IMG/VR virus record: IMGVR_UViG_3300030329_003372
Coordinates: 1 to 61,732 of that record
DNA from: a virus
Length of the DNA stretch: 61,732 bases
Direction: 5' to 3' (one strand)
Below, in pieces: positions 10,513 to 61,732 of the stretch. A program made the translations under genes and the position numbers. The stretch's first letter is position 1, and each line of letters starts with the position of its first letter. The notes under the pieces were generated by a model, which had not been told where the DNA came from, did no database searches, and was given only the letters and a program-made list of their open reading frames with translations.

Positions 10513-10665
10513 TGAGTCTTGCCAAATGTGGCCGCACTCTTTACAGACCAACAGGCGCAGCCGCTCACGCTCTCCATCGAGGAAGCGAGCAGACAGCCTA
10601 CGCGGTATGTGGTTGTGTGTGCAACGACGGCACTTGACCTTCAACCGCTCAAGCAACCGACCCAT
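10483..10665 (-). CDS. Small zinc-ribbon protein
   Basis: 60 residues from ATG 10665, with two Cys pairs (CRRC and CKEC) about 30 residues apart, a basic linker (RERLRLL) and an acidic/basic tail. I chose 10665 because AGAAGG lies nine bases upstream; an ATG at 10674 touches that site directly and is the alternative. Last gene of the chaperonin operon; its 3' end overlaps the convergent fibre gene. The function of such ribbons is usually nucleic-acid or protein binding; nothing more specific can be said. Confidence 0.6.
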   Translation of the reverse strand: MGRLLERLKVKCRRCTHNHIPRRLSARFLDGERERLRLLVCKECGHIWQDSSLKSDKGGV

Positions 10666-10666
10666 G

Positions 10667-10783
10667 TTATTCATCCTTCTCAAGTGTGAAAAACGAAAAC
10701 GCTGTGTGAACCAACCAAACAACAGTGACGGTGATGAACACACCCGCACACGCTTGGATGATGAAGTCAGTTATTGTCATCAT
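10667..10783 (-). CDS. Mini membrane protein (38 aa)
   Basis: Starts at an ATG that overlaps the chaperonin stop (ATGA). It encodes MMTITDFIIQACAG, a hydrophobic run (VFITVTVVWLV) and an acidic end LEKDE. One predicted transmembrane segment. Tight coupling to the chaperonin upstream and the zinc ribbon downstream supports it as a real gene. Function unknown. Confidence 0.5.
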   Translation of the reverse strand: MMTITDFIIQACAGVFITVTVVWLVHTAFSFFTLEKDE

Positions 10784-12267: not shown

Positions 12268-12497
12268 TCTTCCTCACCCTTTAATTTTTGAATTAGTATT
12301 TGTGCTTGATGCCACGCTTCATAAGCATAGACCGCTAAACTACCTCTCGCCCCTTGATTGCGTCGTAGTTCATTCCGAAAATAGCGCACTTCCATTTGTA
12401 AAAATTCCACGTTTTCGTTCGGGTTTTTACCAGCATCATACAATTCCTTAGCCTTCGCCTCTAATTCATCCCATTCGATTTTTTCATCTCTCACCAT
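12264..12497 (-). CDS. Helical hypothetical protein
   Basis: 77 residues, almost entirely charged helix (WDELEAKAKELYDAGK, then VRYFRNELRRNQGARG). It ends in LKGEEE, where GGTGAGGAAGAATGA encodes the tail and also provides the ribosome binding site and start for the chaperonin. No family recognised. Confidence 0.65.
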   Translation of the reverse strand: MVRDEKIEWDELEAKAKELYDAGKNPNENVEFLQMEVRYFRNELRRNQGARGSLAVYAYEAWHQAQILIQKLKGEEE

Positions 12498-13102
12498 TCT
12501 ACATCCACCTCAATAATTGCGCCGGTTTCCAAGCACCGGCTTTTCACGAATCCCTCATCAAGCCCATGCTTGTATAGGTCATACGTGAGTTGTGCATCAG
12601 ACAAGCAATACTTTGCTACGTCATCAAATTGCCCGTTGCGCCATGCGAGTGGCGCGTCGTGGCTTTGCATTAGTTTCTCCCCACCAAGTGTAGACTTGAC
12701 GAGTGTGTTCAGGGTAGTGTCGCACTTGACACCGCCCATCAGCGTTACCGCCTTTTGGAATAGGTTCTTTGTATCGAGGACTGAATCAGCCTTGCCGAGT
12801 AGGTCGCCCGCTGTCCAACAGTCGAGCGCATCACGTAGCACAGGTAGGTCGAAGCCCTTGATGTTGTGTCCGAGGATGCGGCCACCCTTCGCTATGAATG
12901 CCGTCAAGTCATCACCTAACGTGCGTGGGTGTAGTTCCTTGACCGTCGCATCAATGTCGAGTGCTTTGTTACAGTAGACGTTACCATCGGTCCCGTCCCA
13001 CGTAGCCACCACTGTTGGTTCAAACAGTGCGGTCTTATCCCATCCTCCTATCTCGTAAGAGTAGTTGCCGGTTTCTATATCAAGTGCCATTATGTCAGTC
13101 AT
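12491..13102 (-). CDS. 3'-5' exonuclease, DnaQ/DEDDy type
   Basis: 203 residues from the ATG at 13102, which overlaps the previous stop (ATGA); the open frame extends 27 codons further but that is inside the neighbour. Exo motifs are clear: ALDIETG (DxE), LGHNIKGFDLPVL (NxxxFD) and YCLSDAQLTYDLY (YxxxD). This is the two-metal RNase H-fold exonuclease family, which removes 3' nucleotides from DNA or RNA. Its position beside a P-loop ATPase suggests a replication or repair role, possibly accessory proofreading beyond that of the polymerase. Confidence 0.85.
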   Translation of the reverse strand: MTDIMALDIETGNYSYEIGGWDKTALFEPTVVATWDGTDGNVYCNKALDIDATVKELHPRTLGDDLTAFIAKGGRILGHNIKGFDLPVLRDALDCWTAGDLLGKADSVLDTKNLFQKAVTLMGGVKCDTTLNTLVKSTLGGEKLMQSHDAPLAWRNGQFDDVAKYCLSDAQLTYDLYKHGLDEGFVKSRCLETGAIIEVDVEW

Positions 13103-14508
13103 GCTGATGCCCCCTTCATACGGATGTAGCGAGTGCTTCCCTCTTGAGTGTTCGCAAACATATCGGCTGCGAACTGCTTCCAATGCCGGTCAGCGGTCGC
13201 TTTCGATACACCCTTCGCCCCCATGTATGTTTTGACAACAACGGTCTTTCGCCGCCAACCATCACCACGACCATCGAGTTCGTATTCACCACACTTCTTG
13301 TAGGCTTGTTGCCAATTCTCCATGTGGTGTGCTTTCTCGGATGCCTTCATACCTACATCAACCTCATCCTCAAGCCACGTAATTAGATTGCGGAACAGGT
13401 CATACAGAATCTCATGCGCCATATCCACATACTCGGCCTTGACCACCCACGACTTATCGAGCATGGCAATATGCAAGGAGAAGATACCGAGATAGTTCTC
13501 GATACCGGGTGTGAACGAAGCAACTACTTCGGACAACGATGGGTCCATGTTCTCAACCAAATCGTATATGTCATCAGCGGCTGCGTGTAGCGCAGCCTCA
13601 TAGTTCTCATCGGCTGTGAATGCTTCCCACATACATGATTGAAGCAACGCTTCTTGGTCTTCGCGGTCCATCGCATCCCATTCGATGTATGGGGTTTCGG
13701 TCAAGTTAAGCACTCTATCACGTAGGCGTTTGTTGAGGTCAATGAAATAATCATACAAGTCTTGTTTACTCATGCTCGCCTCATCGGGCTTTCTGAAGAA
13801 TGTCGAAAGGCGCATTTGACTCACCTTCTTTCTTTGCTCCATATCCCATTCACCCCAATAGAGAAGCACACGTTGGAAGATACCACGTGTGAGAACGTAT
13901 TCCTTTACACCCTTCGGTGGGTATGTCGTAATCCACATAGACACAAGAGATTCATTTTCAATCGTCCCGTCCTTCATGTGCTTCACAAGTTTGTTGTTCT
14001 CCGTGCCTACAGGATTACACGCGCTTTGTAGATACAACACAGTTTCTTGGCTGAACTTACCGGGTGTAAGAATGATACTTCCTTCATCGAAATTGAGAGC
14101 CTTGCGCCCTGCAAGCAAGCCCTGTTTCTTCACTTTCGTGTAGGTCTTGTCCTTGCCTTCGCCTTCCTCTACAGTGTCCCATGAACCCACAAGACCTGCA
14201 TCAGTTCCTGTGGTATACATCGTGTGTGGTATGTCTACCTGTGATAGAATATCACCTACGAAATTCCATGCGATGGATTTACCTGACCTTGAGGGTTGAA
14301 TCCAAAACACATGAACGCGCGGGTCAGTATACGAATCACCTGTCGGTAATCGGATATACTGCACCGCAATCTGACCTTGCACGAAGAAGAACGATAACAA
14401 CCCCGGAATGGAATTGTCCATTGACGTTCGCTCAAAGTGTTCAAGGTATGCTTTCACGATAGGAAACTTCTGCACCAATTCATACTTGCTGTAATTCACA
14501 TCACTCAT
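13099..14508 (-). CDS. P-loop ATPase, possibly helicase-like
   Basis: 469 residues from ATG 14508 (ATGA overlap with the upstream stop). A Walker A-like QPSRSGKSIAWNF follows hydrophobic strands around residues 70-85, and ALNFDEGSIIL is a plausible Walker B with DE. The C-terminal half is helical, with a late segment (KGVSKATADRHWKQF) resembling a winged-helix. The arrangement recalls phage DUF3987-type or primase-associated helicases, but I cannot assign a family with certainty. Co-transcribed with an exonuclease and chaperonin. Confidence 0.7.
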   Translation of the reverse strand: MSDVNYSKYELVQKFPIVKAYLEHFERTSMDNSIPGLLSFFFVQGQIAVQYIRLPTGDSYTDPRVHVFWIQPSRSGKSIAWNFVGDILSQVDIPHTMYTTGTDAGLVGSWDTVEEGEGKDKTYTKVKKQGLLAGRKALNFDEGSIILTPGKFSQETVLYLQSACNPVGTENNKLVKHMKDGTIENESLVSMWITTYPPKGVKEYVLTRGIFQRVLLYWGEWDMEQRKKVSQMRLSTFFRKPDEASMSKQDLYDYFIDLNKRLRDRVLNLTETPYIEWDAMDREDQEALLQSCMWEAFTADENYEAALHAAADDIYDLVENMDPSLSEVVASFTPGIENYLGIFSLHIAMLDKSWVVKAEYVDMAHEILYDLFRNLITWLEDEVDVGMKASEKAHHMENWQQAYKKCGEYELDGRGDGWRRKTVVVKTYMGAKGVSKATADRHWKQFAADMFANTQEGSTRYIRMKGASA

Positions 14509-14816
14509 CCCATCAACTCCCAATCAAACTCTTCAGGTGGTGTGCATAGTAATCGTTCGTATGCTTCCTTCCAAAGATGTGTATAAGATTTACAATATGA
14601 ATCCTCTATGTTCAATGAACTAAGGGCCGAGGGAGAGTCGAGGTCTACTTCAAAACCCATATCTTCATCCATAGGTTCAATCTCTATGCTGACACTTTCG
14701 TATACACGTTCCCAACCGTCTTTTGTCAAGACTGATATTTTCTTGGTTTTGCATAACTCAACGTCTACCTCAAGTTCTTCTGCTAATTTCATCAACTTCT
14801 GTTTGTAACTCACCAT
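14505..14816 (-). CDS. Hypothetical protein, first gene of chaperonin operon
   Basis: 103 residues with a helical basic start (SYKQKLMKLAEELEVD) and an acidic middle. Starts 16 bases below the shared promoter element, so it is the first gene of its operon. No family recognised. Confidence 0.65.
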   Translation of the reverse strand: MVSYKQKLMKLAEELEVDVELCKTKKISVLTKDGWERVYESVSIEIEPMDEDMGFEVDLDSPSALSSLNIEDSYCKSYTHLWKEAYERLLCTPPEEFDWELMG

Positions 14817-14831
14817 TCAATCACCACTCTC

Positions 14832-14858
14832 AATTCTATTGTTGGTTTAAATATAAAA
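14832..14858 (-). promoter_or_regulatory. Shared promoter element, copy 1
   Basis: Reading the minus strand: TATA part TTTTATATTTAAACC followed by AACAATAGAATT. Heads the ATPase-exonuclease-chaperonin operon. Confidence 0.85.
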
Positions 14859-14986
14859 TTCAATCCACATCGCCGCTGTGTCCTCACGAATGGTCAGGGA
14901 TATATCAACATGACTCAACACCAAATGAGGCATGGTGAGTCAGCACTATAAGCCTACATCATTTTTTTGATGTTGCTTTAAATACT
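14859..14986. other. Intergenic repeat and hairpin region
   Basis: Holds a perfect hairpin at 14956-14973 (ACATCA, six T, TGATGT) and an imperfect inverted repeat around 14913-14943 built on GACTCA/TGAGTC. The same GACTCA words fill the candidate origin near 53.1 kb. May act as terminator for the nuclease-primase operon. Confidence 0.5.
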
Positions 14987-15694
14987 TCACAGATTCCGGC
15001 GCGTTTTTCTCTCAATCTTCACCTCGTCCTCCGATGTTAGCACATCTATGATGCGCTGCCTCAATACCTCACCTAATCCCTTGATTTGTTTGAGTGAATC
15101 CTTGTGGCACATCTCTTCGATGCTGCCACATTTTTCAAGCAAACGTTCCGCTACATCGTTACCGATGCCGGGTATCGTTAGGAGAACATCATGGCGTAAG
15201 TCGTTGCTTGCAACCCGTCGTAATGACTGTGCGCCGTGTCGTGATGCGGGCTTGTGTAACTTGTCGTGTAACTTGACAATGAATTGTGCAGCCTCGCTTG
15301 TGTTAGGTGTGAAGAAAACTTGACAATCAAAGTCACACATGATACGTGCAATCGTTCCTGTGAGTTCATTTTGAATTCTTGAATAGGTTACCTTTCTCCC
15401 ATTCTTTTTCGCCATCGCTACATACTTGTCAATGGAACCGTGAACGACAATGAAGAACCGTTCATAGTTCGCATCCATGTTGTCGAGTTGCCTCCACAGA
15501 TGACCGGAATGTGATGATTGGAATAGGTCTGCGATACTCTTGGCTTCGACCAATGCACCACCAAGTAAGTAATCACCTACTACGAGAGTTTTGCGAACAA
15601 CGTGCATCCCCATCTTCGCAGCCTTGCGTTCTATAGATTCACAAAGTGAACCACGTTCGTTGCTATCAATAATCAAATCAGGTCGTTTACTCAT
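14987..15694 (-). CDS. XPF/ERCC4-family nuclease with helix-hairpin-helix
   Basis: 235 residues from ATG 15694; the longer open frame upstream lies inside the neighbouring zinc-finger gene. Residues 1-130 form an ERCC4-type nuclease: LIIDSNERG, VVGDYLLGG, then VEAKSIADLFQS. The last is the family ERKxxxD motif with Arg replaced by Ala (EAKxxxD), while Glu, Lys and Asp are kept. The C-terminus has a tandem HhH domain (LLTIPGIGNDVAERLLEK, LKQIKGLGEVLRQRI). Family role: cutting branched or fork DNA, as archaeal XPF/Hef does with PCNA. Last gene of its operon. Confidence 0.9.
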   Translation of the reverse strand: MSKRPDLIIDSNERGSLCESIERKAAKMGMHVVRKTLVVGDYLLGGALVEAKSIADLFQSSHSGHLWRQLDNMDANYERFFIVVHGSIDKYVAMAKKNGRKVTYSRIQNELTGTIARIMCDFDCQVFFTPNTSEAAQFIVKLHDKLHKPASRHGAQSLRRVASNDLRHDVLLTIPGIGNDVAERLLEKCGSIEEMCHKDSLKQIKGLGEVLRQRIIDVLTSEDEVKIERKTRRNL

Positions 15695-19400: not shown

Positions 19401-19507
19401 TCTTCCTCACCACTTGCACTAAACTGATGCTGACATTCTACGCATAGATACGCATCAAGCGCACTCAAATAGTAATGCACAGTTGAATTACACTTAGGGC
19501 AATTCAT
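19397..19507 (-). CDS. Zinc-ribbon mini-protein (36 aa)
   Basis: MNCPKCNSTVHYY, then CVECQHQF: a compact CxxC/CxxC ribbon. Ends in GEEE. Confidence 0.7.
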   Translation of the reverse strand: MNCPKCNSTVHYYLSALDAYLCVECQHQFSASGEEE

Positions 19508-19731
19508 CAAATGTTCCCCCTGTATTTACGCTTGTCGCTCTTCATACCCACACGTTCTGTAATCTCATCCGTTGGGATGTAGTCGCTAATCAGACGTTGC
19601 GTATCAGGTCGGAACACATGAGGGTCCCATTCATCAAGCGTTGTCTGCCGCATTTGTTTGCCACCACATTGGCAGCAGTAACTACGGTCATCAACCGTAG
19701 GCTTCTTTCTAAATCTCTCAAACCATTTCAT
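19507..19731 (-). CDS. Small basic protein with CxxC, first gene of operon
   Basis: 74 residues: basic start (MKWFERFRKKPT), CCQCGGK, then a polar C-terminus. Preceded by GGAGG and nine A just upstream of the ATG, below promoter copy 2. Confidence 0.65.
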   Translation of the reverse strand: MKWFERFRKKPTVDDRSYCCQCGGKQMRQTTLDEWDPHVFRPDTQRLISDYIPTDEITERVGMKSDKRKYRGNI

Positions 19732-30041: not shown

Positions 30042-30181
30042 GCCGTCACCTCCACGCAATCACACTCTTGTGTGTTACAATCACAGGTCTGACACATAGG
30101 ACACCATGAATAGTCAGATACTGCTGTCCAACCACATTCGGGACACATTAGCGCATCAATTAGCATCACCCTTTTACTCAT
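30038..30181 (-). CDS. Zinc-finger mini-protein (47 aa)
   Basis: ATG start at 30181 (MSKRVMLIDALMCPECGW). Further CPMCQTC and CDC; eight Cys. Ends CVEVTA. Confidence 0.65.
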   Translation of the reverse strand: MSKRVMLIDALMCPECGWTAVSDYSWCPMCQTCDCNTQECDCVEVTA

Positions 30182-30315
30182 GCCTTCACCTCCACGCCTA
30201 TTCGTTGCTTTCCACAACAAGTATCGTCTGTATTCTTCCAATCGAATAAACACACATGGAGTGTATTGCATACACTACACCAACGATAATCGCTATTCTG
30301 ACCACCATTCTTCAC
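30178..30315 (-). CDS. Zinc-finger mini-protein (45 aa)
   Basis: GTG start. RWCSVCNTLHVCLFDW, then TCCGKQ. Ends GVEVKA, with GTGGAGGTGAAGGCATGA coupling to the next gene. Confidence 0.6.
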   Translation of the reverse strand: MKNGGQNSDYRWCSVCNTLHVCLFDWKNTDDTCCGKQRIGVEVKA

Positions 30316-30518
30316 GCCGTCACCACCTCATCTAAGGAACCGACAAGTTGTATTCCACAATGACGACAAGTAACTGACAAGCGCATCTCAAACCTCTTAG
30401 TCTTTCCATGAATCACCCAATGTTCGCGACAAGGCCAACTTGAATCGAATACCCATTCACAATCCCCACCGACATTCTTCCCATCGGCATCTCCGGGGCA
30501 TTCGTAGTAATTGCTCAT
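30312..30518 (-). CDS. Small zinc protein (68 aa)
   Basis: MSNYYECPGDADGKNVGGDC and CRHCGIQLVG provide four Cys; basic centre (HGKTKRFEMRL). Ends DEVVTA. Confidence 0.65.
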   Translation of the reverse strand: MSNYYECPGDADGKNVGGDCEWVFDSSWPCREHWVIHGKTKRFEMRLSVTCRHCGIQLVGSLDEVVTA

Positions 30519-30682
30519 TCCTTCACCCCCGGTGGGTTGGTATGTTCTAATTCACCGCTCATACACATACCACATCTTCTACAAACAATCCCAATCATAG
30601 GGGGTTCTAACCAATCAATCTCCCAATCATGATAATGGTCTACATTCATTGTGCTTTCGTCATCTATATCGCATCGCTTCAC
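30515..30682 (-). CDS. Zinc-finger mini-protein (55 aa)
   Basis: GTG start. RCDIDDEST, a His-rich HYHDW, then VCRRCGMCMSG. Ends in GVKE. Confidence 0.6.
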   Translation of the reverse strand: MKRCDIDDESTMNVDHYHDWEIDWLEPPMIGIVCRRCGMCMSGELEHTNPPGVKE

Positions 30683-38015: not shown

Positions 38016-38225
38016 TTACTCGTCCTCCTGTGCCATTTCGTCAATCCATCCTCTAATCTCATCCACATCTGCACCGAACACTTTCTCATACAGTTCATAG
38101 AAATCATCGGCGGCTTCCCAACCTACTGATTCAACCATCATCTCAACCGTATCTCGGTCATATTCTCCTACGTATTGGGATGCTACAAAGCAAGCCAATC
38201 TTGTCATTCTCCCGTAGTCACTCAT
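38016..38225 (-). CDS. Acidic helical protein (69 aa)
   Basis: MSDYGRMTRLACFVASQYVG, acidic helices, ends MAQEDE. Stop lies directly beside the TTG start of the next gene. No family recognised. Confidence 0.6.
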   Translation of the reverse strand: MSDYGRMTRLACFVASQYVGEYDRDTVEMMVESVGWEAADDFYELYEKVFGADVDEIRGWIDEMAQEDE

Positions 38226-38536
38226 CTATGCTCAACTCCATAATCATACATGACCGCCCACATACGTTCAAACGCTCTCTTCAAATTCGTTTCATCCACG
38301 CTATTCTTGAAATTGTCATAATCAATCCCTTCGATATACTGCATGACTACCTGCGCTACATTGAGGCGTGGTATCACGCTCCTATACGGGTAGTCTGCGT
38401 CCGGGTTATGAACAACCTCCACATCCGGCCAAAAGGTAGAGATATGCCTCTCTCTACGCGCCCGCACCAATAGGTCATCGGGTCTTTCTCGGTGAGCCAC
38501 TATGCTCAACCATCCATTACTGTGTCCAAACCACAT
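38222..38536 (-). CDS. Hypothetical protein (104 aa), first gene of HTPGPW operon
   Basis: Start is ATG 38536 (MWFGHSNGWLSIVAHRERPD), eight bases below the promoter. Reading upstream through the promoter gives an artificial FIFKPTVE extension. Arg-rich centre (VRARRERHISTFW). No family recognised. Confidence 0.65.
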   Translation of the reverse strand: MWFGHSNGWLSIVAHRERPDDLLVRARRERHISTFWPDVEVVHNPDADYPYRSVIPRLNVAQVVMQYIEGIDYDNFKNSVDETNLKRAFERMWAVMYDYGVEHR

Positions 38537-38543
38537 CAATAGA

Positions 38544-38570
38544 AATTCTACTGTTGGTTTAAATATAAAA
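38544..38570 (-). promoter_or_regulatory. Shared promoter element, copy 6
   Basis: TTTTATATTTAAACC then AACAGTAGAATT. Confidence 0.85.
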
Positions 38571-38579
38571 ATGAGATTT

Positions 38580-39287
38580 TCAAGCAACTCTACGTGCGAT
38601 GTTGCCGATTCGTTCTTGCATGACATTTCTCGTCATAGGATTCTGAAGATGTTGTAGTGCTTGTGTGAAAGCATCCTCACCACCGTATTGGTCCCATGAT
38701 TGACCCAACTCTTGCTCACTCATGTTGCCGAACACTTCAGGTGTGTATGATGGCTTCCACTGCATTGTGTCGAGGTCGCTAATGTCGCCGCTCCAAGCAT
38801 CCTTCTTGGGTGCGCCCTGCGCCCTGAATGGTCCCGCGCCTCCTACATCAACGTAGGTTGGTGTCCCATCCGGTCGAATCAATACGTTGTCTAAACCAAG
38901 ACCGAGAACATCCCAATTCCCAATCGCAGCATGAGGCACGAAGTCCTGTCGAACTCGTTGCACTGCGTCCTTATCATGTAGGTTTAAGGGTCGCGCGTCC
39001 TCTTCATATCGAGAAAGCATGGTGTAGGGCCATTGACTTGGCCCGAATAATTTTGCTTCAGGAACACCAACGCCGAGGGCGTCGAGATAACGATTCATAT
39101 CGAACTCGTTGAGAATGTGAGCAGGGTGCGCCCCCTTCTTTCTAACAAAGCGTTGCCCTGTTGGTGTTTCATGCAAACGCGCCCCTGTGCTACCACCGAG
39201 ATTGATGCCTCGCCTACCGCGAATGTTCTGCCAAGCGGCATCCATCGGGTCGGGCATGAAGAAGCGGAAGTGACTATCACGTATCAT
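38580..39287 (-). CDS. Kinase-like protein (HipA/PI-kinase fold) with AW motif
   Basis: 235 residues from ATG 39287. A Gly loop NLGGSTGARLHETPTG (29-44) precedes FVRKKG with a candidate ATP-binding Lys (50-51). GNWDVLGLGLDNVLIRPDG (123-141) fits a catalytic Asp-Asn loop, and YVDVGGA (145-151) a metal-binding DVG in place of DFG. This order matches HipA/PI4K-like atypical kinases. Near the N-terminus PDPMDAAWQNIRG resembles the PMDLAWRLLK motif of the 55-61 kb proteins. Kinase call is by motif layout only. Confidence 0.6.
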   Translation of the reverse strand: MIRDSHFRFFMPDPMDAAWQNIRGRRGINLGGSTGARLHETPTGQRFVRKKGAHPAHILNEFDMNRYLDALGVGVPEAKLFGPSQWPYTMLSRYEEDARPLNLHDKDAVQRVRQDFVPHAAIGNWDVLGLGLDNVLIRPDGTPTYVDVGGAGPFRAQGAPKKDAWSGDISDLDTMQWKPSYTPEVFGNMSEQELGQSWDQYGGEDAFTQALQHLQNPMTRNVMQERIGNIARRVA

Positions 39288-39289
39288 GC

Positions 39290-39874
39290 TTACGCGAGCC
39301 AAAAGTCATGGCCCTTGAGTGCATCATCAACAGACGACTCAATGCCTGACATATCCAAGAAAGATTGAAAGACACCTTTGTTTGTTTCATTCACTTCGGC
39401 ATCTGATGGATTACGAAGAAACACGGCATCCTCGCTAAGAGGAATAAGCCCTGCCTCGTAACCATCGAGGTATGCTGCGTATGCTGATTCGTTTAGATAG
39501 CCCTCATCATCCATCAGGGTAATGCCTTTCACACGCCACGTTGATTTCATCGGGTCTGTTATCGCCTGTAGTTGCAGCGTATGAATCCAAGACAAAGGAA
39601 CTTCAAAGTGTTCAGCAAGTTGCTCGTATGCCAACCACCAACAAACCACATCGAACTGTTGAGCGGAACCCAACATCTGTATCGGGTCACCTACCATACT
39701 CAACCATGAGGTGTGGTCCGTGCTTGAATCACGTGCGGCATTCAACATTCGCTCGGCTGCGTTACGTCGCTTGAAGTAAACATCATTGATAGTCTGATTG
39801 AACTGTGGCATATCCACTTGCATTCTCTCAACCAAGTCGTTAAGACCTTCTTCTAATGAATGGAATAGTGTCAT
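39290..39874 (-). CDS. Hypothetical protein (194 aa)
   Basis: Helical, with QTINDVYFKRR near residue 28, a peptide nearly repeated in the small zinc protein at 45.5 kb. C-terminal SFLDMSGIESSVDDALKGHD. No family recognised. Confidence 0.6.
   Translation of the reverse strand: MTLFHSLEEGLNDLVERMQVDMPQFNQTINDVYFKRRNAAERMLNAARDSSTDHTSWLSMVGDPIQMLGSAQQFDVVCWWLAYEQLAEHFEVPLSWIHTLQLQAITDPMKSTWRVKGITLMDDEGYLNESAYAAYLDGYEAGLIPLSEDAVFLRNPSDAEVNETNKGVFQSFLDMSGIESSVDDALKGHDFWLA
39763..39796. repeat. 34-nt shared repeat, copy A
   Basis: Reads TACGTCGCTTGAAGTAAACA and on to AGTCTG. Matches 45563-45596 with one mismatch; encodes the TINDVYF peptide in both genes. Confidence 0.8.
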
Positions 39875-54912: not shown

Positions 54913-56403
54913 ATGGCGACAGCGTTCGATAAAGCGTGGTCGTTTACGAAAATGACCGCTTTCCGTCCTACGGAAGAGGCGTTCAATGTCCACGGTGAGA
55001 GAGAAAGATTACATCAACTCGCTGACATTCTTAGAGATGACCCTGCTATCAATATGAGGCCACGCGACCATATTGGTTTAGAAAGAGTTGGTCATAGAAA
55101 AGGCGAATATGATGTAGGAAGAGTCTTGTCAAATCTTATTGTAGACCGTCCTTTATTGCCTGAAACATTGAAGAGGTTAAGAGCATTGTATGGAACAGCA
55201 GATGCATACAAAATTGATACCGACAAAAATTCTCCTACATATGGAGCCATGATGTATTCAATAGCACCAAAGAGAAGAGGTGGTGAAGGAGAATCAGGTT
55301 CACCGCTTGACCAATTTGAAAGACCTGAAAGTTCTTGGCACGGAAAAGGAACATCACATACTGTTCCTGAACGAACACAAATCACACCTGAACATCGTGA
55401 AAGAATGTTGAACACCCCTCAAACCCCGGAGGAAGAGCGGGCGATGGATTTGTTTGATACAAGTTTAGAGAGTGGTGGAATTTCACGTGGTCGTTATCCG
55501 ATATGGAATAAAATGAGAGTTGCGGGTGAGATTGATTATGCAAAGAACATTTTCGATGTTATCCATCATTGGAATCCAAAATGGGGGCGACCGCCCGACC
55601 TGCATCCTGATGCATCGGAAGAAGAAATTCAAGCATACTACGCCGCAGCCGTGAAATTGAAAGAAGATTGGATAGCAGACAACGGCTATATGCCAGCAAA
55701 GCCAAGCATAAGAGCAATCATTGAACAAGAAAATAAATTGTCACCGGATTGGAATGAATTGATTCATGAACATGGTTTCCTACCACCACGGAGTGATGTT
55801 GGACACCCGCACCCGAACGCGGAAATGAATAGGCGTGTTAGAGAAGAAATGGGACATGACCCACACAAAATGGGGAAAGCGGAAAAACATTTCAGAAGAA
55901 GAATGGACGATGCCAATATACCTCATCCGTGGGTTAGACCGATACAACCACACGTAGCAGAAACATTTTATGAAGAAAATAATAAGAAGTTTTTTGCATC
56001 AGAAGAAGGACAACAGAAATTACGAAATCAACTATTAGAAACAGGTAGATTATCAAACAAATGGTGGGGATATTTACAAGAACATCCTGAACTTGAGCAT
56101 TTGGGCATGGGGCCGGGCGATTTACCTGATGAAATTAAAGAAAAACTTCCTGTTCTACAACCTCTACGAACTTTGCAACCTGATTGGGCAGAAACATTCA
56201 TGCCACAAAATCCCGGTGATGTTTCAAGAGCAGTTGGTGAACTTACCGGTGGCGAAAGTAGTATAGTTCCCAAACTCAACCCCGTTTCAAGAATGTTCAC
56301 ACCGGAACAAGAAGAGCAAAGTTGGGGTTGGTCAAGTAGTAAAAAAGGTAAACCAATGGATTTGGCTTGGCGACTATTGAAAGAAACCGGCACATATATT
56401 TGA
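54913..56403 (+). CDS. AW-motif protein with motif at both ends (496 aa)
   Basis: Start ATG 54913, chosen for its leaderless TATA spacing and because the N-terminal motif FDKAWSFTK then sits at the very start, as in the neighbours; an ATG at 54880 falls in the TATA box. C-terminus PMDLAWRLLKETGTYI. The body is polar, rich in Glu, Pro, His and Trp, with repeated EEFY/WNE segments and little hydrophobic core, so partly disordered. No family recognised. Its last codons (ACATATATTTGA) form the TATA box of the next gene. Probably a head or morphogenesis protein. Confidence 0.7.
   Translation: MATAFDKAWSFTKMTAFRPTEEAFNVHGERERLHQLADILRDDPAINMRPRDHIGLERVGHRKGEYDVGRVLSNLIVDRPLLPETLKRLRALYGTADAYKIDTDKNSPTYGAMMYSIAPKRRGGEGESGSPLDQFERPESSWHGKGTSHTVPERTQITPEHRERMLNTPQTPEEERAMDLFDTSLESGGISRGRYPIWNKMRVAGEIDYAKNIFDVIHHWNPKWGRPPDLHPDASEEEIQAYYAAAVKLKEDWIADNGYMPAKPSIRAIIEQENKLSPDWNELIHEHGFLPPRSDVGHPHPNAEMNRRVREEMGHDPHKMGKAEKHFRRRMDDANIPHPWVRPIQPHVAETFYEENNKKFFASEEGQQKLRNQLLETGRLSNKWWGYLQEHPELEHLGMGPGDLPDEIKEKLPVLQPLRTLQPDWAETFMPQNPGDVSRAVGELTGGESSIVPKLNPVSRMFTPEQEEQSWGWSSSKKGKPMDLAWRLLKETGTYI
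56394..56401 (+). promoter_or_regulatory. TATA box inside coding end, for start at 56424
   Basis: ATATATTT centred 27 bases before ATG 56424; lies in the last codons and stop of the upstream gene. Confidence 0.55.
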
Positions 56404-56423
56404 TAAGGCTTCTTCCTCGCGTC

Positions 56424-56786
56424 ATGGCGCAACCGTTCCGTCGGGCTTGGGTTATACTCAAGCAGGGTCCTTACGACCACCAAAACCCGGATGAGCGACC
56501 ACGCGGATTATACCCTCCTTACAGTGAGCAGATACCAACAGATTGGCCTCCCTATGACCCGCGACCGTATGAACCACACCCGGACGACCCATCAGATTGG
56601 CCTCCAAGACCGGATATAGAACCCTACGACCCTCATCGCCGCCCCCATACGCAGCCAAATCCATTTGACCCAAGTAGTCGAATAGCCGAAATTCAGACAC
56701 AAATTCAACGGTTGGAAGCAGAACTACAACGTTTACTTCAAATGCAAGCAGGTGCAGGTGGAGGTGGTCACCCGTGGGAAAGATGA
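56424..56786 (+). CDS. AW-motif, Pro-rich and coiled-coil protein (120 aa)
   Basis: MAQPFRRAWVILKQGPYD start, then a long Pro/Asp/Tyr-rich stretch (DWPPYDPRPYEPHPDD) and a coiled coil (EIQTQIQRLEAELQRLLQMQ). A motif tag, flexible spacer and oligomerisation helix: the layout of a scaffold or adaptor. Ends in ATGA overlap. Confidence 0.7.
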   Translation: MAQPFRRAWVILKQGPYDHQNPDERPRGLYPPYSEQIPTDWPPYDPRPYEPHPDDPSDWPPRPDIEPYDPHRRPHTQPNPFDPSSRIAEIQTQIQRLEAELQRLLQMQAGAGGGGHPWER

Positions 56787-57247
56787 GTCCTTTTGAATTA
56801 GCATGGTCGCTTTTGAAGGACGTATCTATGCTCGGTTCAGAACCGTGGAAAGATGTGCGCGAACAAGCATTGTTGGATGCATCGAGAGAACAACATACAG
56901 ACGAAGGATGGAAAGAAAGCGGAAGGCAAAGACCGGGTTTGGCTACAATTGCCGGTGGTGTGCCCCCTCTCACATCAGATAATTCAGAACCTGAAGACCT
57001 TCCCTATCAAGGTATGACGCAAGAAGAGGCAGATGAGTTTAATCGGCAAATGGCGCTACAAGCACAAGCACAAGATAGGTTGGTTCCAAAAGCAACCAAC
57101 CTATCGCCCATAGTTTGGCCGAACAACCCACCGCAATCCTCCGGTAGATTGCGATTGGCAACCGGCTCTATCCCGCAACAAGGAATGCCGGATTATCCAT
57201 TCGTCGGTGTAAAACCAAGAATAAATGAAACAAACCCGTTTGCATAG
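56783..57247 (+). CDS. AW-motif protein (154 aa)
   Basis: ATG 56783 (MSPFELAWSLLKDVSMLG), overlapping the previous stop. GTG 56774 is possible but would push the motif inward. Body is polar and Pro-rich with low complexity (ALQAQAQD). No family recognised. Confidence 0.65.
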   Translation: MSPFELAWSLLKDVSMLGSEPWKDVREQALLDASREQHTDEGWKESGRQRPGLATIAGGVPPLTSDNSEPEDLPYQGMTQEEADEFNRQMALQAQAQDRLVPKATNLSPIVWPNNPPQSSGRLRLATGSIPQQGMPDYPFVGVKPRINETNPFA

Positions 57248-57256
57248 GTGTTCGAC

Positions 57257-58216
57257 ATGAACGCTTTTGCAAAAGCGTGGGCGCTTTTGAAAGACGATGC
57301 GGGAACAATGCGTCGTGTTGAATTACCCGAAGAGGGCGACGCAATCAAATATGCACTACCGCACCGAGCCACAAAATTGGGTCAACTTCCAATAAACATG
57401 GGTATCAGCCAAGCATTACAAGGAATGAATTATCCAATCGAAGGCGAAAAGCCGTTTGGTTATCGAGATAAAGTTGGTTACACAGTTTCCCAACCAAAAG
57501 CGCATAAATTGTTTCCCTTTGATATTGATAATCCAACACAATATGGAATAGATGCGACTGACTTAGAATTGGCTTTTCAGGAATCCCCGTTGATTAACTT
57601 ACTTACAAGTGACCGTGGGGATTTGGATATTCATCCGGGGAATCTTGGTTATTTTGGAAATGAATTGAAAACTTTTGACCCGATGTATGGGCCGGAAAGA
57701 AAAGAAAGACCCGGAGAAATAAAAGAAAATGCATTCAACCACGCTATCCGAGATATGTATAACACAATGCATTCTGATTTCGATGCAGGTCAAAATACTG
57801 CTTTAGACCCTAATATGATAGAGGCGTGGAAAGAGCGGCTTCGTCAAGTTCGTGAAGCAAGTGATGAACTACCGGAATTTATTCAACGTTACAAAAATCG
57901 AGAAATGTTTAGACCGTGGTTAGATGATGAATCAGAAAATATAGACCCGCGACATAGACAACAGATGTTAGAAAGATTCAATCAATACAAAAATTTCGGT
58001 GATGCGTTGGCTTGGTTACAAAATACAATCAATGACCCCGAACAAACTCGTTTGTATGATTTTGAAGAAAACCCAAAATACAAACAATATGTTGATTTTA
58101 TGCAACAAGCAGGTCAATCAGAAAGAGGGCCTGAAAGTTTCTATCCAGCACAACAAATAGGGATGAAACCCGCATGGTCACCAGAAAAAATTAAAGAAAA
58201 ACAAGTAGATTGGTAA
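57257..58216 (+). CDS. Kinase-like AW-motif protein (319 aa)
   Basis: ATG 57257 gives MNAFAKAWALLKDDAG at the N-terminus. Residues 120-143 read RGDLDIHPGNLGYFG then NELKTFDPM, closely matching a kinase catalytic loop DxxPxN (Asp 124, Asn 129) and a metal-binding FDP in place of DFG. This form occurs in small phage kinase-like proteins. Gly loop and Lys are less clear (LPINMGISQALQG). Kinase activity is inference. The C-terminal half is helical with many Glu/Arg. Confidence 0.6.
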   Translation: MNAFAKAWALLKDDAGTMRRVELPEEGDAIKYALPHRATKLGQLPINMGISQALQGMNYPIEGEKPFGYRDKVGYTVSQPKAHKLFPFDIDNPTQYGIDATDLELAFQESPLINLLTSDRGDLDIHPGNLGYFGNELKTFDPMYGPERKERPGEIKENAFNHAIRDMYNTMHSDFDAGQNTALDPNMIEAWKERLRQVREASDELPEFIQRYKNREMFRPWLDDESENIDPRHRQQMLERFNQYKNFGDALAWLQNTINDPEQTRLYDFEENPKYKQYVDFMQQAGQSERGPESFYPAQQIGMKPAWSPEKIKEKQVDW

Positions 58217-58225
58217 GGAATTTAA

Positions 58226-58951
58226 ATGTCAATACTCTTTCCGAGATTTATGCGTAAGTCGGCGTTGGAACCGAATGAACGTGAGTTACGTAATGAGGCA
58301 CGTGCGTTGCAAATGGGCGGTGACCCTGCAACAGCCAAACGATTTATTGCTGTGGCAAACGCGATGGGTAGACCTGAAAAACTTCGACAACAATATATTG
58401 AATCACACGCTAATCCACTTCTAAGTGAAATTCTTGGTGAGCCAATAGAAGGCCCTGATGCGGAAGCAGAAGAACTGTGGGATGAAGGACGCAGAAATGT
58501 TGATTTTAGTGAAATTAAGCAAAATCCTGAAAATTACTATGATGCTGCACAGCGAGCAAAATTACTTCAAATGTTTTCTGATATGGAACGAGGGCGTGGT
58601 GTTCATTCACGCGCTCAAGAGAAAAGTCAAAATTTACTTAGTCAATTAATACAAGACGACCCATCAAAATTTTTCGCTGACCGGCGACAAGATGAACACT
58701 ATAATTTTGACCCACCGATGGATATTTCATTTGAAGAAAGTGAAAAAAATGAACAGCGCCGGGCAGAAGAAAGACAACAAGCAGAATCTCTTCAAGGATG
58801 GGATAAAATCGCTTATGATGAACAACAACGTATGTTGATGGGAAGAAACCCAAATCAACCGGGTGATGAAATTACCCAAGTTGGAAAAGGAACACCGATG
58901 GATTTGGCTTGGAGATTATTGAAACAAAATCTTACCTCGGTTTACTTGTAG
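58226..58951 (+). CDS. AW-motif protein, motif at C-terminus (241 aa)
   Basis: MSILFPRFMRKSALEPNERE start; charged helices with Gln/Glu; ends GTPMDLAWRLLKQNLTSVYL, nearly the same as the end of the 54913 gene. Start preceded by AAGGAATTTAA. No family recognised. Same block. Confidence 0.65.
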   Translation: MSILFPRFMRKSALEPNERELRNEARALQMGGDPATAKRFIAVANAMGRPEKLRQQYIESHANPLLSEILGEPIEGPDAEAEELWDEGRRNVDFSEIKQNPENYYDAAQRAKLLQMFSDMERGRGVHSRAQEKSQNLLSQLIQDDPSKFFADRRQDEHYNFDPPMDISFEESEKNEQRRAEERQQAESLQGWDKIAYDEQQRMLMGRNPNQPGDEITQVGKGTPMDLAWRLLKQNLTSVYL

Positions 58952-58963
58952 TAACCTACCACT

Positions 58964-58971
58964 TTAAATTC
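58964..58971 (+). promoter_or_regulatory. TATA box for leaderless HMG-CoA lyase start
   Basis: TTTAAATT centred about 25 bases before GTG 58992. An imperfect ACACC/GGGTGT hairpin lies between them. Confidence 0.5.
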
Positions 58972-58991
58972 CACACCGCCTTTCGCGGGGT

Positions 58992-59831
58992 GTGCGTGAT
59001 TTCACTGTATACGAAGTTGGACCCCGCGACGGTCTACAGAACGCTTCGTTCAGCGCAAGCACAGAAGAAAAAATTGAACTGATTCGCAGTTTAGCGAATG
59101 CCGGTTTAACGGATATGGAAGTTGGGTCTTTTGTCCACCCAAATTTAGTCCCTTCAATGGCCGATTCTGCGGAAGTTTACGAAGAGGTGGCGGACTACGG
59201 CGACTTTTCAGTTTTGATTCCAAATGAGAAGGGATTGGACCGTGCTTTGTCTGTCGGTGTGGAAAATTTCAACATATTTTTTTCTCCATCAGATGAATTT
59301 AATTTGAGAAATCTCGGTCGAACAAAAACACAAGCGATGACAGAATATCTACGAATGCTTGACAAAATTCCTGACAGTAAAATTAGAGTCTATCTTTCCG
59401 TAATTTTCGGTTGTCCCTTTGAAGGGAAAATACCTGACGAAAAAATTTACGAGTCTATCCTTGAAGCCTCGCTTCTTGGAGATACGGTTGTCCTTTGCGA
59501 TACGATAGGACAAGCAACAAAAAATGACATACAAAAAATATGTGACTATGCTGAAGATTTCAAAGCAGATTTCGCTTTGCATCTTCATCATAAACCAAAT
59601 GAAAATGAAAGAGCATTGGCTCTTGTAGAAGAAGCGATAGCCGGTGGTATTACAGAAATTGATGCCAGCATTGGTGGTATGGGTGGTTGTCCATTCATCC
59701 CCGGCTCAAGTGGTAATGTCGCTACCGAACAATTGGTGAATTTGCCCGGTTATGACTGTGGTATTGATTCTGATTCCTTACTTCCCTCGCTTGAGTGGAT
59801 AAGTAAACGGAAACAGAAAGTGATACTATGA
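58992..59831 (+). CDS. HMG-CoA lyase (auxiliary metabolic gene)
   Basis: 279 residues from a GTG. HMG-CoA lyase splits 3-hydroxy-3-methylglutaryl-CoA into acetyl-CoA and acetoacetate. Visible signatures: YEVGPRDGLQN (catalytic Arg 12, Asp 13), LSVIFGCPFEG, LCDTIGQAT, metal-binding ALHLHHKP (His 197, 199) and the Cys-loop GGCPFIPGSSGN (Cys 233, Asn 242). The strand after HLH differs from the usual HCHDTYGQAL: HHKPNENERAL with three extra residues. Slightly short versus about 300. Likely taken from a host; could feed leucine breakdown or isoprenoid-precursor balance. Followed by an ATGA-overlapping membrane gene. Confidence 0.9.
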   Translation: MRDFTVYEVGPRDGLQNASFSASTEEKIELIRSLANAGLTDMEVGSFVHPNLVPSMADSAEVYEEVADYGDFSVLIPNEKGLDRALSVGVENFNIFFSPSDEFNLRNLGRTKTQAMTEYLRMLDKIPDSKIRVYLSVIFGCPFEGKIPDEKIYESILEASLLGDTVVLCDTIGQATKNDIQKICDYAEDFKADFALHLHHKPNENERALALVEEAIAGGITEIDASIGGMGGCPFIPGSSGNVATEQLVNLPGYDCGIDSDSLLPSLEWISKRKQKVIL

Positions 59832-59992
59832 TGATTGTAATTACTGCGATAATGGGCTTGTTAGGAATTTTTTGCTTGAATACTTGGATTGCTGTCCGAA
59901 GTATCAACAAAATGGAAATTGTGTTGGATTTTTCGGTTGAAGACTTCGTAAATGAAATGTATGAAGGTCACCGCTTTGGGCGGGATGACTGA
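59828..59992 (+). CDS. Small membrane protein (54 aa)
   Basis: MMIVITAIMGLLGIFCLNTW then IAVRSINKMEIVLDFSVEDF. One N-terminal membrane segment, acidic cytosolic tail. ATGA overlap with the lyase; TGATG with the next gene. Confidence 0.6.
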   Translation: MMIVITAIMGLLGIFCLNTWIAVRSINKMEIVLDFSVEDFVNEMYEGHRFGRDD

Positions 59993-60240
59993 TGCTCAAA
60001 TTTTTCATGAGAATAATGGGACACGTTTATTGTTTCCTTGAAAAATTTGTTAAATATCCAAATGACCATACAATTCTTGGCGTTCCTATTGATGAAGACC
60101 TTCAGGCTATGAGCCGAAAGGAACTTTGCATATTTATCGAAAGTAAAACACCCGCGAGTGGTTCATTTTGGGATTTGGATTCTACATCTAAAATTCGTTT
60201 TGGCGCACAACTTCTTCGGGAGATGTTGAAAAATGATTGA
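59992..60240 (+). CDS. Hypothetical protein (82 aa)
   Basis: MLKFFMRIMGHVYCFLEKFV, then a polar domain (ILGVPIDEDLQAMSRKELCI). Amphipathic or membrane-near N-terminus. Overlaps the next start. No family recognised. Confidence 0.6.
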   Translation: MLKFFMRIMGHVYCFLEKFVKYPNDHTILGVPIDEDLQAMSRKELCIFIESKTPASGSFWDLDSTSKIRFGAQLLREMLKND

Positions 60241-60409
60241 GTGGATGGTAGTTTTTATCCCATTATGGATTCTTGGTTTCTTTATCGGGTTCTTTTCCGC
60301 CCGAATCAATAAATTCTTTGAAGAACCGAAAGCATTTATTCTCCAAAAAGGAACCGTAATAGAAACACCAAAGGCGTTAGAAGAATTACTATTCCACCAA
60401 AAAGAATAA
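60233..60409 (+). CDS. Small membrane protein (58 aa)
   Basis: MIEWMVVFIPLWILGFFIGF, SARINKFFEEPKAF, acidic/basic tail. One membrane segment. The last 74 bases overlap an antisense gene. Confidence 0.55.
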   Translation: MIEWMVVFIPLWILGFFIGFFSARINKFFEEPKAFILQKGTVIETPKALEELLFHQKE

Positions 60410-60467
60410 TTCCGAGAATGTAAGTTACAAGAAGCGGTAAAATCTTGAGATATTCAAGCCACCTCAT
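60336..60467 (-). CDS. Small membrane protein, antisense overlap (43 aa)
   Basis: MRWLEYLKILPLLVTYILGI, ILFGGIVILLTPLVFLLRFL, FGE. Two hydrophobic segments, holin-like in size. Lies ten bases after the stop of the minus-strand AW protein, so it would be co-transcribed, and overlaps the plus gene by 74 bases. Confidence 0.5.
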   Translation of the reverse strand: MRWLEYLKILPLLVTYILGIILFGGIVILLTPLVFLLRFLFGE

Positions 60468-60476
60468 GTGGCTCCC

Positions 60477-61262
60477 TCAAAAATAATCTGATTCAGGTTG
60501 TGGAACAACGGGGTCGGTTTCAGCAAAACTACGGTCGTAACTTTCGATGAGTCTTCTTGCTATATCTTCATCTTGGTCATGGATATTATCGAGAATGAAT
60601 GAGTTATCATCTTCATTTGTGTGAATAGTATGTTGTGGATTCAAATTTTTGAGATGCTCAAATAATTCATCCTGTTGCTCATCATGTGGACCGACTTCCA
60701 TACGGTTTTTCAAAAGTCTGTTGGCGACTTCCATTGGTTCGCTCGTCCATTTTTGTTCAAATTCAGATGGGAAGCATTGTCTACATTGATGAAATCCACC
60801 AGCGGGGTCGGCAACCCATTTCAATCCGCCACACATTTCACAAGTGGGGTCGTCTTCAGGGAAACCCGCCGGACCTGCCATCACCGCTTTCAAAATAGCC
60901 CAAGCGTTATGCATCGGACCATCAAGCACCCAATCACCGTAGTAGTATTGGTCGTCACTTTTCGCCGTGCCTGTAGAAATTTCTTTTCCGTGTTGCGCGG
61001 CTTCCATCGTTTGTTGTTGGCTCGCTTGTTTTTTTGCTTCGGCATTTGCTTGGTGTTGGGAGATATTACCCTGAACAAAACCCGCCGTTGTTAGAGGATT
61101 TTCTTTGACGGCTGTTTTAGCCCCTCTACCAATTTTTGCACCCATTTGACCAATTCTACTTCCCGCGATTGCTCTACCTATATTGGCAACTATTGGTCCC
61201 AAAGCGGGCAGTGCTTTCTCAACGTCATCGCCGGTCGGTTGAGTAACAGCGATGCGCCCCAT
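60477..61262 (-). CDS. AW-motif protein with zinc ribbon (261 aa)
   Basis: From ATG 61262 (MGRIAVTQPTGDDVEKAL). A Gly/Ala/Ile-rich amphipathic N-terminus (IGQMGAKIGRGAKTAVKENP) resembles membrane-active or scaffold helices. Then comes a motif PMHNAWAILKAVMAGP, a ribbon (TCEMCGG, CRQC), a second motif PMEVANRLLKNRME, and an acidic C-terminus. Divergent from the plus-strand gene at 61316. Confidence 0.65.
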   Translation of the reverse strand: MGRIAVTQPTGDDVEKALPALGPIVANIGRAIAGSRIGQMGAKIGRGAKTAVKENPLTTAGFVQGNISQHQANAEAKKQASQQQTMEAAQHGKEISTGTAKSDDQYYYGDWVLDGPMHNAWAILKAVMAGPAGFPEDDPTCEMCGGLKWVADPAGGFHQCRQCFPSEFEQKWTSEPMEVANRLLKNRMEVGPHDEQQDELFEHLKNLNPQHTIHTNEDDNSFILDNIHDQDEDIARRLIESYDRSFAETDPVVPQPESDYF

Positions 61263-61280
61263 GCATCCTCGCAAACGTCG

Positions 61281-61290
61281 GTAATTCTAA
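61281..61290. promoter_or_regulatory. Possible shared divergent TATA region
   Basis: TAATTCTAAA reads TTTAGAATTA on the other strand; its centre is about 24 bases from minus ATG 61262 and 30 from plus ATG 61316, so it could serve both genes. Confidence 0.35.
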
Positions 61291-61315
61291 ACGATGCCGG
61301 TTCTTAGCCGCCCCT

Positions 61316-61732
61316 ATGGGGCGGAAGCATTCTCCTGAACGTGATGCTTGGGTCCTTCTCAAAAGAGCGGCTTTCAGTGGTTCGCCGTGGTTGACACCAC
61401 AATGGAAAAAAACACCTGAACAATCACTTTACGATGCTGAAATGCAATCACAAGAACAAGCCGACCCTGAATTTGAATGGCCCCAAGCGCCGCAACCCCC
61501 ACAACTTCCACCCGGACCTTCAAAATTAACAGATTTTGATTCGACCATGTTTGACCCCGAAGAACCGGATAATCGAATGACTTTGGGACAAGTCGCTGTT
61601 AAGCAAGGAATACCACATCAGCAAGGTGCTGATGAATTTTCACATATTTTGGATGGGAAAACATTCGTGGATAGAATGTTAGAAGATAAACCCAAAGGCG
61701 CATCAAGCCCATATTTTGGTGAATGGACAAAT
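61316..61732 (+). CDS. AW-motif protein (3' partial)
   Basis: ATG 61316 gives MGRKHSPERDAWVLLKRAAF, then a Pro/Gln-rich spacer (WPQAPQPPQLPPGPSK) and a polar part; runs off the window with no stop. The sequence before the start (TTAGCCGCCCCTATGG) resembles that before the 54913 start (TTAGCGCCGCCTATGG). Confidence 0.65.
   Translation, partial: MGRKHSPERDAWVLLKRAAFSGSPWLTPQWKKTPEQSLYDAEMQSQEQADPEFEWPQAPQPPQLPPGPSKLTDFDSTMFDPEEPDNRMTLGQVAVKQGIPHQQGADEFSHILDGKTFVDRMLEDKPKGASSPYFGEWTN

Follow-up and report, generated by a model that had tools for sequence, protein, structure and literature searches.

A ten-residue tag on dissimilar proteins of marine Poseidoniales viruses most likely marks cargo for loading into the virus head

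The window analyzed here, a 61,732-nucleotide stretch of viral DNA, ends in a block of genes whose products carry a common ten-residue tag and which we regard as cargo candidates. The first of them (54913..56403, forward strand) encodes a protein of 496 amino acids with a tag at each end, the N-terminal AFDKAWSFTK (54922-54951, 24.7 bits) and PMDLAWRLLK (56353-56382, 28.9 bits), the latter six residues before the C terminus. This protein had no Pfam or PHROG match, and the homologue search found no relatives of it in phages or viral contigs. On the same strand follow a Pro-rich protein of 120 amino acids (56424..56786) with the N-terminal tag PFRRAWVILK (56433-56462, 22.2 bits), a protein of 157 amino acids (56774..57247) beginning with PFELAWSLLK (56789-56818, 28.9 bits), and one of 319 amino acids (57257..58216) beginning with AFAKAWALLK (57263-57292, 26.4 bits). 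The last of these genes had been called at 57248, but its start is more likely the ATG at 57257, which places the tag at residues 3-12. A protein of 241 amino acids (58226..58951, forward strand) has its tag, again PMDLAWRLLK, at the C terminus (58895-58924, 28.9 bits). On the reverse strand, 60477..61262 encodes a cargo or head candidate of 261 amino acids with a hydrophobic, Gly-rich N-terminal part and two internal tags, PMHNAWAILK (60888-60917, 23.5 bits) and PMEVANRLLK (60708-60737, 18.9 bits). The forward gene at 61316..61732 is cut by the window end (139 amino acids seen) and carries the N-terminal tag PERDAWVLLK (61334-61363, 16.6 bits). Scans of the window's tagged proteins against Pfam and PHROG gave weak or sub-threshold matches only. 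Every peptide listed in the first-pass annotation is present in the window.

The tag follows the consensus [AP]-[FM]-D-x-A-W-x-L-L-K and usually occupies residues 3-12, but some copies stand at the C terminus and others recur within large proteins, between one cargo module and the next. The motif is genuine, departs strongly from chance expectation, and is conserved. A strict pattern matched 7 times in seven window proteins against 0.0 expected from 5000 residue shuffles, and a looser pattern matched 9 times in the same proteins against 0.016 expected. All 7 strict matches lie within the 54.9-61.7 kb block, and a six-frame scan of the whole window found none outside it. The motif had been ascribed to a whole gene block, which is overstated because the HMGL-like gene inside the block (58992..59831, forward strand; PF00682, E 3.7e-26) and the small ORFs at 59828-60409 are untagged. 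The HMGL-like gene is a synteny marker in common with the relative G001 (79599-80564). A further related motif had been noticed at 38.6 kb, where the reverse-strand gene 38580..39302 encodes a kinase-like protein (weak match to the Ser/Thr kinase StkP, E 0.0013) with the degenerate N-terminal sequence PMDAAWQNIR (39219-39248). At 9.4 bits, against a best chance score of 11.4 bits among other window ORFs, its score alone is not significant and we rejected it as a strict match, but AW.FLKEEVRLRG opens its homologues in G013 and G026, and we keep it as a tentative member.

Beyond the window, the tag occurs in about 130 proteins across 13 related genomes. A profile search of 15 viral genomes found 171 sites of at least 13 bits in real ORFs, whereas the same profile gave 5 sites in reversed and 1 in shuffled control proteins. 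Tagged proteins of these 15 genomes form about 90 clusters; all loci together yielded 570 tagged sequences in 175 clusters. About 70% of all distinct sites are N-terminal; internal sites number 131 and C-terminal ones 21. Paralogues exist among the tagged proteins (the xHGT and RQTTL groups), as would be expected if the tags were remnants of homologous N termini, the other such explanation being chance similarity among helices. We consider either very improbable, since the 175 clusters have no detectable mutual similarity outside the tag, a result on which homology of all tagged proteins was rejected. Moreover, tags sit at both termini and internally, the shuffled and reversed controls are near zero, and the two identical copies of PMDLAWRLLK in the window use different codons. 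The first-pass annotation had proposed looking for the pattern in host proteins, in unrelated parts of the genome, and in related viruses. The N-terminal pattern was found in 0 of 146 Poseidoniales-order genomes, and a host origin of the motif was rejected on this basis; other parts of the viral genomes seldom contain the motif, and related viruses conserve it. None of these three tests refuted the proposed tag. It was not found in about 92 kb of HVTV-1, a virus only distantly related but with a homologous capsid protein (best score 7.3 bits). The halovirus vir519 has one 19.4-bit match, in a gene outside the head module, which we treat as unproven.

Tagged genes are linked to the head module. 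On the capsid-gene strand lie the genes of 119 of 124 tagged proteins; for 99 of the 124, the gene is on this strand and precedes the capsid gene by 8-45 kb (odds ratio 15, Fisher p 1e-39). The first-pass annotation had asked whether the tag is confined to the surroundings of terminase, portal, and capsid genes; some tagged genes are at a great distance from the head module, in the 60-80 kb bins. The same capsid-protein family was present on 21 of 22 long contigs retrieved by the motif alone, and head module and tag diverge together (position 1 is Ala or Pro depending on the clade, p 1e-18), the two clade versions being AFDTAW and PFDQAW. Downstream of the tagged genes, on the same strand, relatives encode terminase, portal, prohead protease, and capsid protein, which supports the earlier suggestion that the tag serves docking or packaging through one shared partner that would be encoded beyond the window. 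As the window ends before its own capsid gene, PolB and gene content are what link it to the magrovirus-like (Poseidoniales) tailed viruses, to which it probably belongs. The relative G001, whose PolB is 55% identical to that of the window, encodes the capsid protein, and one Poseidoniales single-cell contig carries this capsid protein (a 63% relative) together with tagged genes.

The tag could instead be a short linear motif that recruits proteins outside the head, to a host protein, a replication focus, or the tail. The tagged genes outside the head module fit such recruitment, as does a PCNA-binding-box-like sequence, RQTTLGEF, that often lies 0-3 residues after the tag (23 sites versus 3 expected), so that tagged N termini do carry interaction motifs. 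However, the close association of tagged genes with head genes and with a single capsid family, clade-specific tag changes that follow the viral head genes, and the absence of the N-terminal pattern from the 146 host genomes, which implies that no host motif of such form was copied, make recruitment outside the head quite unlikely.

The end of the tag is probably a prohead-protease site of the form hydrophobic-x-Lys. Matching sequences are present in the head proteins themselves: [LI]LKAD is invariant in the N-arm of the capsid protein, as in the arm peptide SGSELLKADSP, and hydrophobic-hydrophobic-K is conserved near the N terminus of the prohead protease and at the protease/scaffold junction in 13 of 13 homologues. 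Hydrophobic-x-K is enriched 2.35-fold in the protease-scaffold protein and avoided in cargo bodies (144 versus 220 expected, z -6.3; 7 versus 16.8 in the window cargo by itself). Cargo bodies showed no depletion of hydrophobic-x-R/E/D, and other viral proteins none of hydrophobic-x-K. The HK97 protease likewise cleaves after Lys (K103/S104; PMC10275583); the SPN3US protease, in contrast, cleaves after A-x-E (PMC10052503). A structure prediction of the capsid protein, meant to assess exposure of LLKAD, had a pLDDT of 30. With 2-10 residues beyond the Lys, C-terminal tags would benefit little if cleaved there; docking may be their sole role, or the cut may fall at another place, such as before PM in GE-PM.

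Encapsulin cargo-loading peptides are short peptides that steer unrelated cargo into an HK97-fold shell. By analogy, the tag could be a pure docking helix that binds capsid or scaffold, with LLK as part of the surface that binds and no cleavage. C-terminal and internal tags would function uncleaved, and the tag of an ADP-ribosyltransferase-fold cargo protein is predicted to form a short helix at residues 3-10. Yet the AWS(S/E)LLK variant, one residue longer, still keeps LLK, the capsid arm and protease conserve comparable LLK/ILK sites, and hydrophobic-x-K is avoided elsewhere in cargo, which together render docking without cleavage unlikely. In contrast to encapsulin peptides, most copies of the tag are at the N terminus and cleavage is probable, and the shell is not a non-viral encapsulin compartment but that of a tailed DNA virus, with portal, terminase, protease, and capsid genes present in relatives.

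We think it probable that the sequence is a portable cargo tag that docks proteins in the assembling head, is cut by the prohead protease, and precedes injection with the genome. The helical part, [AP][FM]D.AW, would dock the protein onto an inner head component during head assembly, either the capsid protein or a scaffold-like region that forms one protein with the prohead protease. The protease would then cut at the tag end inside the head, freeing cargo that would be injected together with the genome to act on the host at an early stage. We infer each of these elements (docking partner, packaging, cleavage, and injection) from sequence.

The injected set would comprise ADP-ribosyltransferase-fold enzymes, DNA methyltransferases, hydrolases, probable metallopeptidases, and many proteins of no known function. 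An ADP-ribosyltransferase fold in cargo is predicted by structure comparison (Tpt1/KptA, E 2.5e-4, probability 1.00), and Pfam matches identify DNA methyltransferases and an HD hydrolase (PF00145, 4.7e-12; PF02086, 2.7e-7; HD_4, 5.1e-7). ASCH, ParB, and acetyltransferase cargo, suspected by eye, were not confirmed by Pfam; the ParB candidate had a weak PHROG match (E 3e-4). Pfam and PHROG scans gave most cargo no name, so the label "effector" rests on a minority of families.

The closest parallel is the capsid-targeting sequence (CTS) of phage T4, a short N-terminal propeptide on highly diverse head-packaged proteins that is removed by the prohead protease; T4 cargo includes an injected ADP-ribosyltransferase, Alt (PMC3012670, PMC5694885, PMC9503650). 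In both systems, one short peptide spans dissimilar proteins (175 clusters here), and the archaeal-virus cargo, with its ADP-ribosyltransferase-fold proteins, DNA methyltransferases, and HD hydrolase, is reminiscent of Alt and the T4 internal proteins. Unlike the CTS, the tag has a different sequence with Lys at the putative cut, is also C-terminal and repeated in polyproteins, and occurs in archaeal viruses on far more cargo families; ten residues are too short for a claim of homology. P1 DarA and Hdf are internal capsid-bound antirestriction proteins, and the prohead protease removes the DarA N terminus, but the parts of that account available to us describe no short tag common to many dissimilar proteins (PMC12810830).

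We found no description of the motif in the searchable literature, within which it would be the first such loading code for archaeal viruses. The search likewise returned no virion proteomics or cleavage results on any magrovirus. Marine Poseidoniales viruses most likely use one label on well over 100 unrelated proteins for head loading, release, and delivery to the next cell, which suggests that tailed viruses in general load proteins into their heads and free them by proteolysis. Given the tag, sequence alone singles out, among hundreds of proteins with no known function, those that probably travel in the virion and are the first to act in the host cell, and what archaeal tailed viruses deliver besides DNA becomes testable. 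The tag is also a candidate handle for packing foreign proteins into an archaeal virus head.

Internal tags coincide with module borders, and the same modules are found elsewhere as separately tagged proteins, consistent with tag copies delimiting the modules of polyproteins. Polyvalent proteins of phages and conjugative elements are large, virion-embedded, and probably injected, with several effector domains among which ADP-ribosyltransferases are common (PMC9503650). The large tagged proteins combine several modules in one polypeptide, most of them left unnamed by the Pfam and PHROG scans. A recurring tag parts these modules, which are found as individually tagged proteins too, and this suggests that the polypeptide is cut apart instead of remaining a single multidomain protein. 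More speculatively, and as a possibility we do not favor, viruses of the magrovirus kind could share a universal code of address helix and cut site, by which effector polyproteins would be loaded, split at every tag, and injected separately, some with a newly N-terminal PCNA-binding box through which they would act at the replication clamp. The number of tags varies by genome (one in G014, three in G026), and single proteins can carry many: a 1205-amino-acid protein of G016 has 9 and a 960-amino-acid protein of G013 has 5, with modules in common with single proteins.

The window, a 61.7-kb IMG/VR virus record, carries PolB, a thermosome gene, a clamp loader and further replication genes of archaeal type (gene list read by eye), and all of the motif peptides listed in the first-pass annotation are present where it placed them. 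In a six-frame search of the window, the strict pattern [PSA][MF]..A[WN].[LIV]LK was confined to 56.3-61.7 kb, within long ORFs. The seven window proteins hold seven matches to this pattern, against 0.0 expected from 5000 shuffles, and nine to a looser pattern, against 0.016. Because the two window copies of PMDLAWRLLK differ at several synonymous positions, their identity points to selection at the protein level and not to recent DNA duplication. The claim that a whole gene block is tagged held for seven proteins; the exceptions were an HMGL-like gene (hydroxymethylglutaryl-CoA lyase family) at 58992 and the small ORFs that come next. This untagged gene (58992-59831) lies inside the block of tag-bearing (cargo) genes, with synteny kept in the related contig G001 (79599-80564). 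The kinase-like gene at 38.6 kb appears as two overlapping ORFs (38222-38626 and 38580-39302, minus strand), possibly a frameshift or split gene; its homologues in related genomes have a clearer N-terminal tag.

G001, an 81-kb contig found via PolB (55% identity to the window), has its motif copies grouped at 77-81 kb, beside the same HMGL-like gene. Downstream of this cluster, on one strand, lie terminase, portal, prohead protease and a major capsid protein homologous to that of HVTV-1 and HCTV-1 (E down to 1e-55). We searched the whole viral collection for DNA encoding M-x-[AP]-F-x-x-A-W-x-x-L-K, and many contigs among the matches listed had 2-5 copies inside a few kilobases. The same capsid family was present on 21 of 22 long contigs picked from these matches purely by motif; the sole exception, of 258 kb, is probably a chance match. 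The first-pass annotation had named equal frequency in host proteins and lack of conservation in related viruses as grounds for rejection. The N-terminal pattern had no matches among 146 genomes of the Poseidoniales order and the motif is present in G001 and many other viral contigs, so the observation stood, to a greater extent than first reported. A contig from a Poseidoniales single-cell genome encodes a capsid relative (63% identity), with two tagged proteins at the same locus; virus contig CACGHY010000002.1 (L281), within Poseidoniales single-cell genome AG-422-I20, ties this virus group directly to its host.

The first-pass annotation had also asked whether tagged genes keep to the neighborhood of terminase, portal and capsid genes. 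With contigs taken as circular, 99 of 124 tagged proteins were encoded 8-45 kb upstream of the capsid gene (odds ratio 15, p 1e-39), and 119 of 124 on its strand. The halovirus HVTV-1, despite its homologous capsid protein, showed no copy of the tag in the ~92 of 102 kb covered. HVTV-1 gp115 and gp116 (10623-15018), between portal and protease, have recurring modules in common (RVYVDSPDEAPEGVQVQQG), and WVSDPTEQAPNRW is repeated in gp115; these modules are perhaps a haloviral counterpart of the tag. A methanogen-virus protein (vir519, 30170-30673), remote from head genes, has an internal TATRIAWRLLK (19.4 bits), either chance or a distant tag version.

A 10-position profile gave 171 sites of at least 13 bits in 15 viral genomes; reversing the proteins left 5 such sites and shuffling them left 1, controls that allow for the profile's training on the same genomes. 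The consensus over all loci was [AP] [FM] [DEN] x A W x [LVI] L K, with the final Lys in 470 of 500 distinct sites; a variant, AWS[SE]LLK, is one residue longer and keeps the LLK end. About 70% of sites are N-terminal, usually starting at residue 3 (MTAFDTAW.LLK, MNPFDQAW.LLK), and internal or C-terminal copies most often follow GE or SE (TGEPMDIAMRLLK). Position 1 is dominated by Ala in one viral clade and Pro in the other (p 1e-18), paralleled in the capsid arm by SGTDLLKAD versus SGSELLKAD. A tag co-evolving with a head component would be expected to show this split, but common descent by itself could give it too.

The tag end matches sites in two head proteins. Some 34 residues into the capsid protein lies a conserved LLKAD (ILKAD in the related genome G014). 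In 13 prohead protease homologues (down to 34% identity), a hydrophobic-[LIV]-K is conserved right ahead of the protease domain, and a second site (FRILK, YTILK) lies at the junction with a long C-terminal scaffold-like region. If such sites are cut, packaged cargo would be expected to lack them elsewhere. Counting in a single representative of each cluster after masking the tags, we found 144 hydrophobic-x-K sites versus 220 expected (z -6.3) and 17 hydrophobic-hydrophobic-K sites versus 39.5; window cargo alone showed the same trend (7 versus 16.8). Hydrophobic-x-R, -E and -D equaled or exceeded expectation, other viral proteins showed no hydrophobic-x-K depletion, and the protease-scaffold protein was 2.35-fold enriched. 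Judging from sequence, hydrophobic-x-Lys is the likely site of a prohead-protease cut here. The HK97 protease cuts after Lys103 (PMC10275583) and that of SPN3US after A-x-E (PMC10052503).

Polyproteins carry repeated tags: nine in a 1205-aa protein of G016 and five in a 960-aa protein of G013, both related viral genomes. In-silico cuts at these tags yielded modules that reappear in other places as proteins with a tag of their own. The tag thus lies at the borders between modules, like a processing site; module alignments typically start 1-4 residues past the tag Lys. An 82-residue module (phrog_6437), C-terminal in many polyproteins, also stands alone as an 88-aa tagged protein in G020. RQ[ST]TL-type peptides (RQTTLGEFHPDFPS) stand 0-3 residues past the tag Lys in 25 of 28 occurrences, and fit the PCNA-binding-box pattern Q-x-x-[LIM]-x-x-[FWY]. 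A cut after the Lys would place them at the new N terminus. Near tags this pattern occurred 23 times versus about 3 expected, an excess that paralogy partly explains; we regard it as a lead, not a result. RQTTLGEF/RQTTLDEW copies (L043, L058, L067, G010:52984-53592 and other loci) mostly lie directly after a tag; the one in the window belongs to a small protein that lacks the tag (19507-19731, minus strand).

Most cargo had no Pfam match. The cargo that could be named comprises a C5-cytosine methylase, two D12-type adenine methylases, an HD hydrolase, a GP88-family protein and a DUF5872 protein. [YFWH]HGT occurred in 41 of 570 tagged versus 3 of 1014 untagged proteins, and the zinc-peptidase-like HExxH in 46 versus 14, rough ratios given homologous copies within the tagged set. 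A structure model of one family bearing the HGT motif (pLDDT 80.8, tag helical) had its top matches in the ADP-ribosyltransferase superfamily, the best being RNA 2'-phosphotransferase Tpt1/KptA (E 2.5e-4, probability 1.00, TM 0.45), in weak agreement with a sequence-profile search of solved structures. As a set, the named cargo recalls T4 Alt and the polyvalent effectors that phages are believed to inject (PMC9503650).

Together, the genomic evidence supports well the earlier proposal that the tag may be a packaging signal for cargo. The T4 capsid-targeting sequence is the sole common feature of a highly diverse internal-protein set (PMC3012670), and the archaeal-virus tag would work similarly, as a targeting sequence common to highly diverse proteins. 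Sequence, residue at the inferred cut and virus group set it apart, and, unlike the T4 element, it also occurs C-terminally and as a repeated linker. In open-licence literature on magroviruses, internal proteins or capsid targeting, no account of a comparable tag turned up.

Separately, TTTTATATTTAAACCAACAGTAGAA occurs in the window as seven near-identical minus-strand copies (54349, 53054, 47323, 44965, 38560, 35282 and 30951), each 21-35 bases ahead of an ATG, and is probably a common viral promoter of leftward genes.
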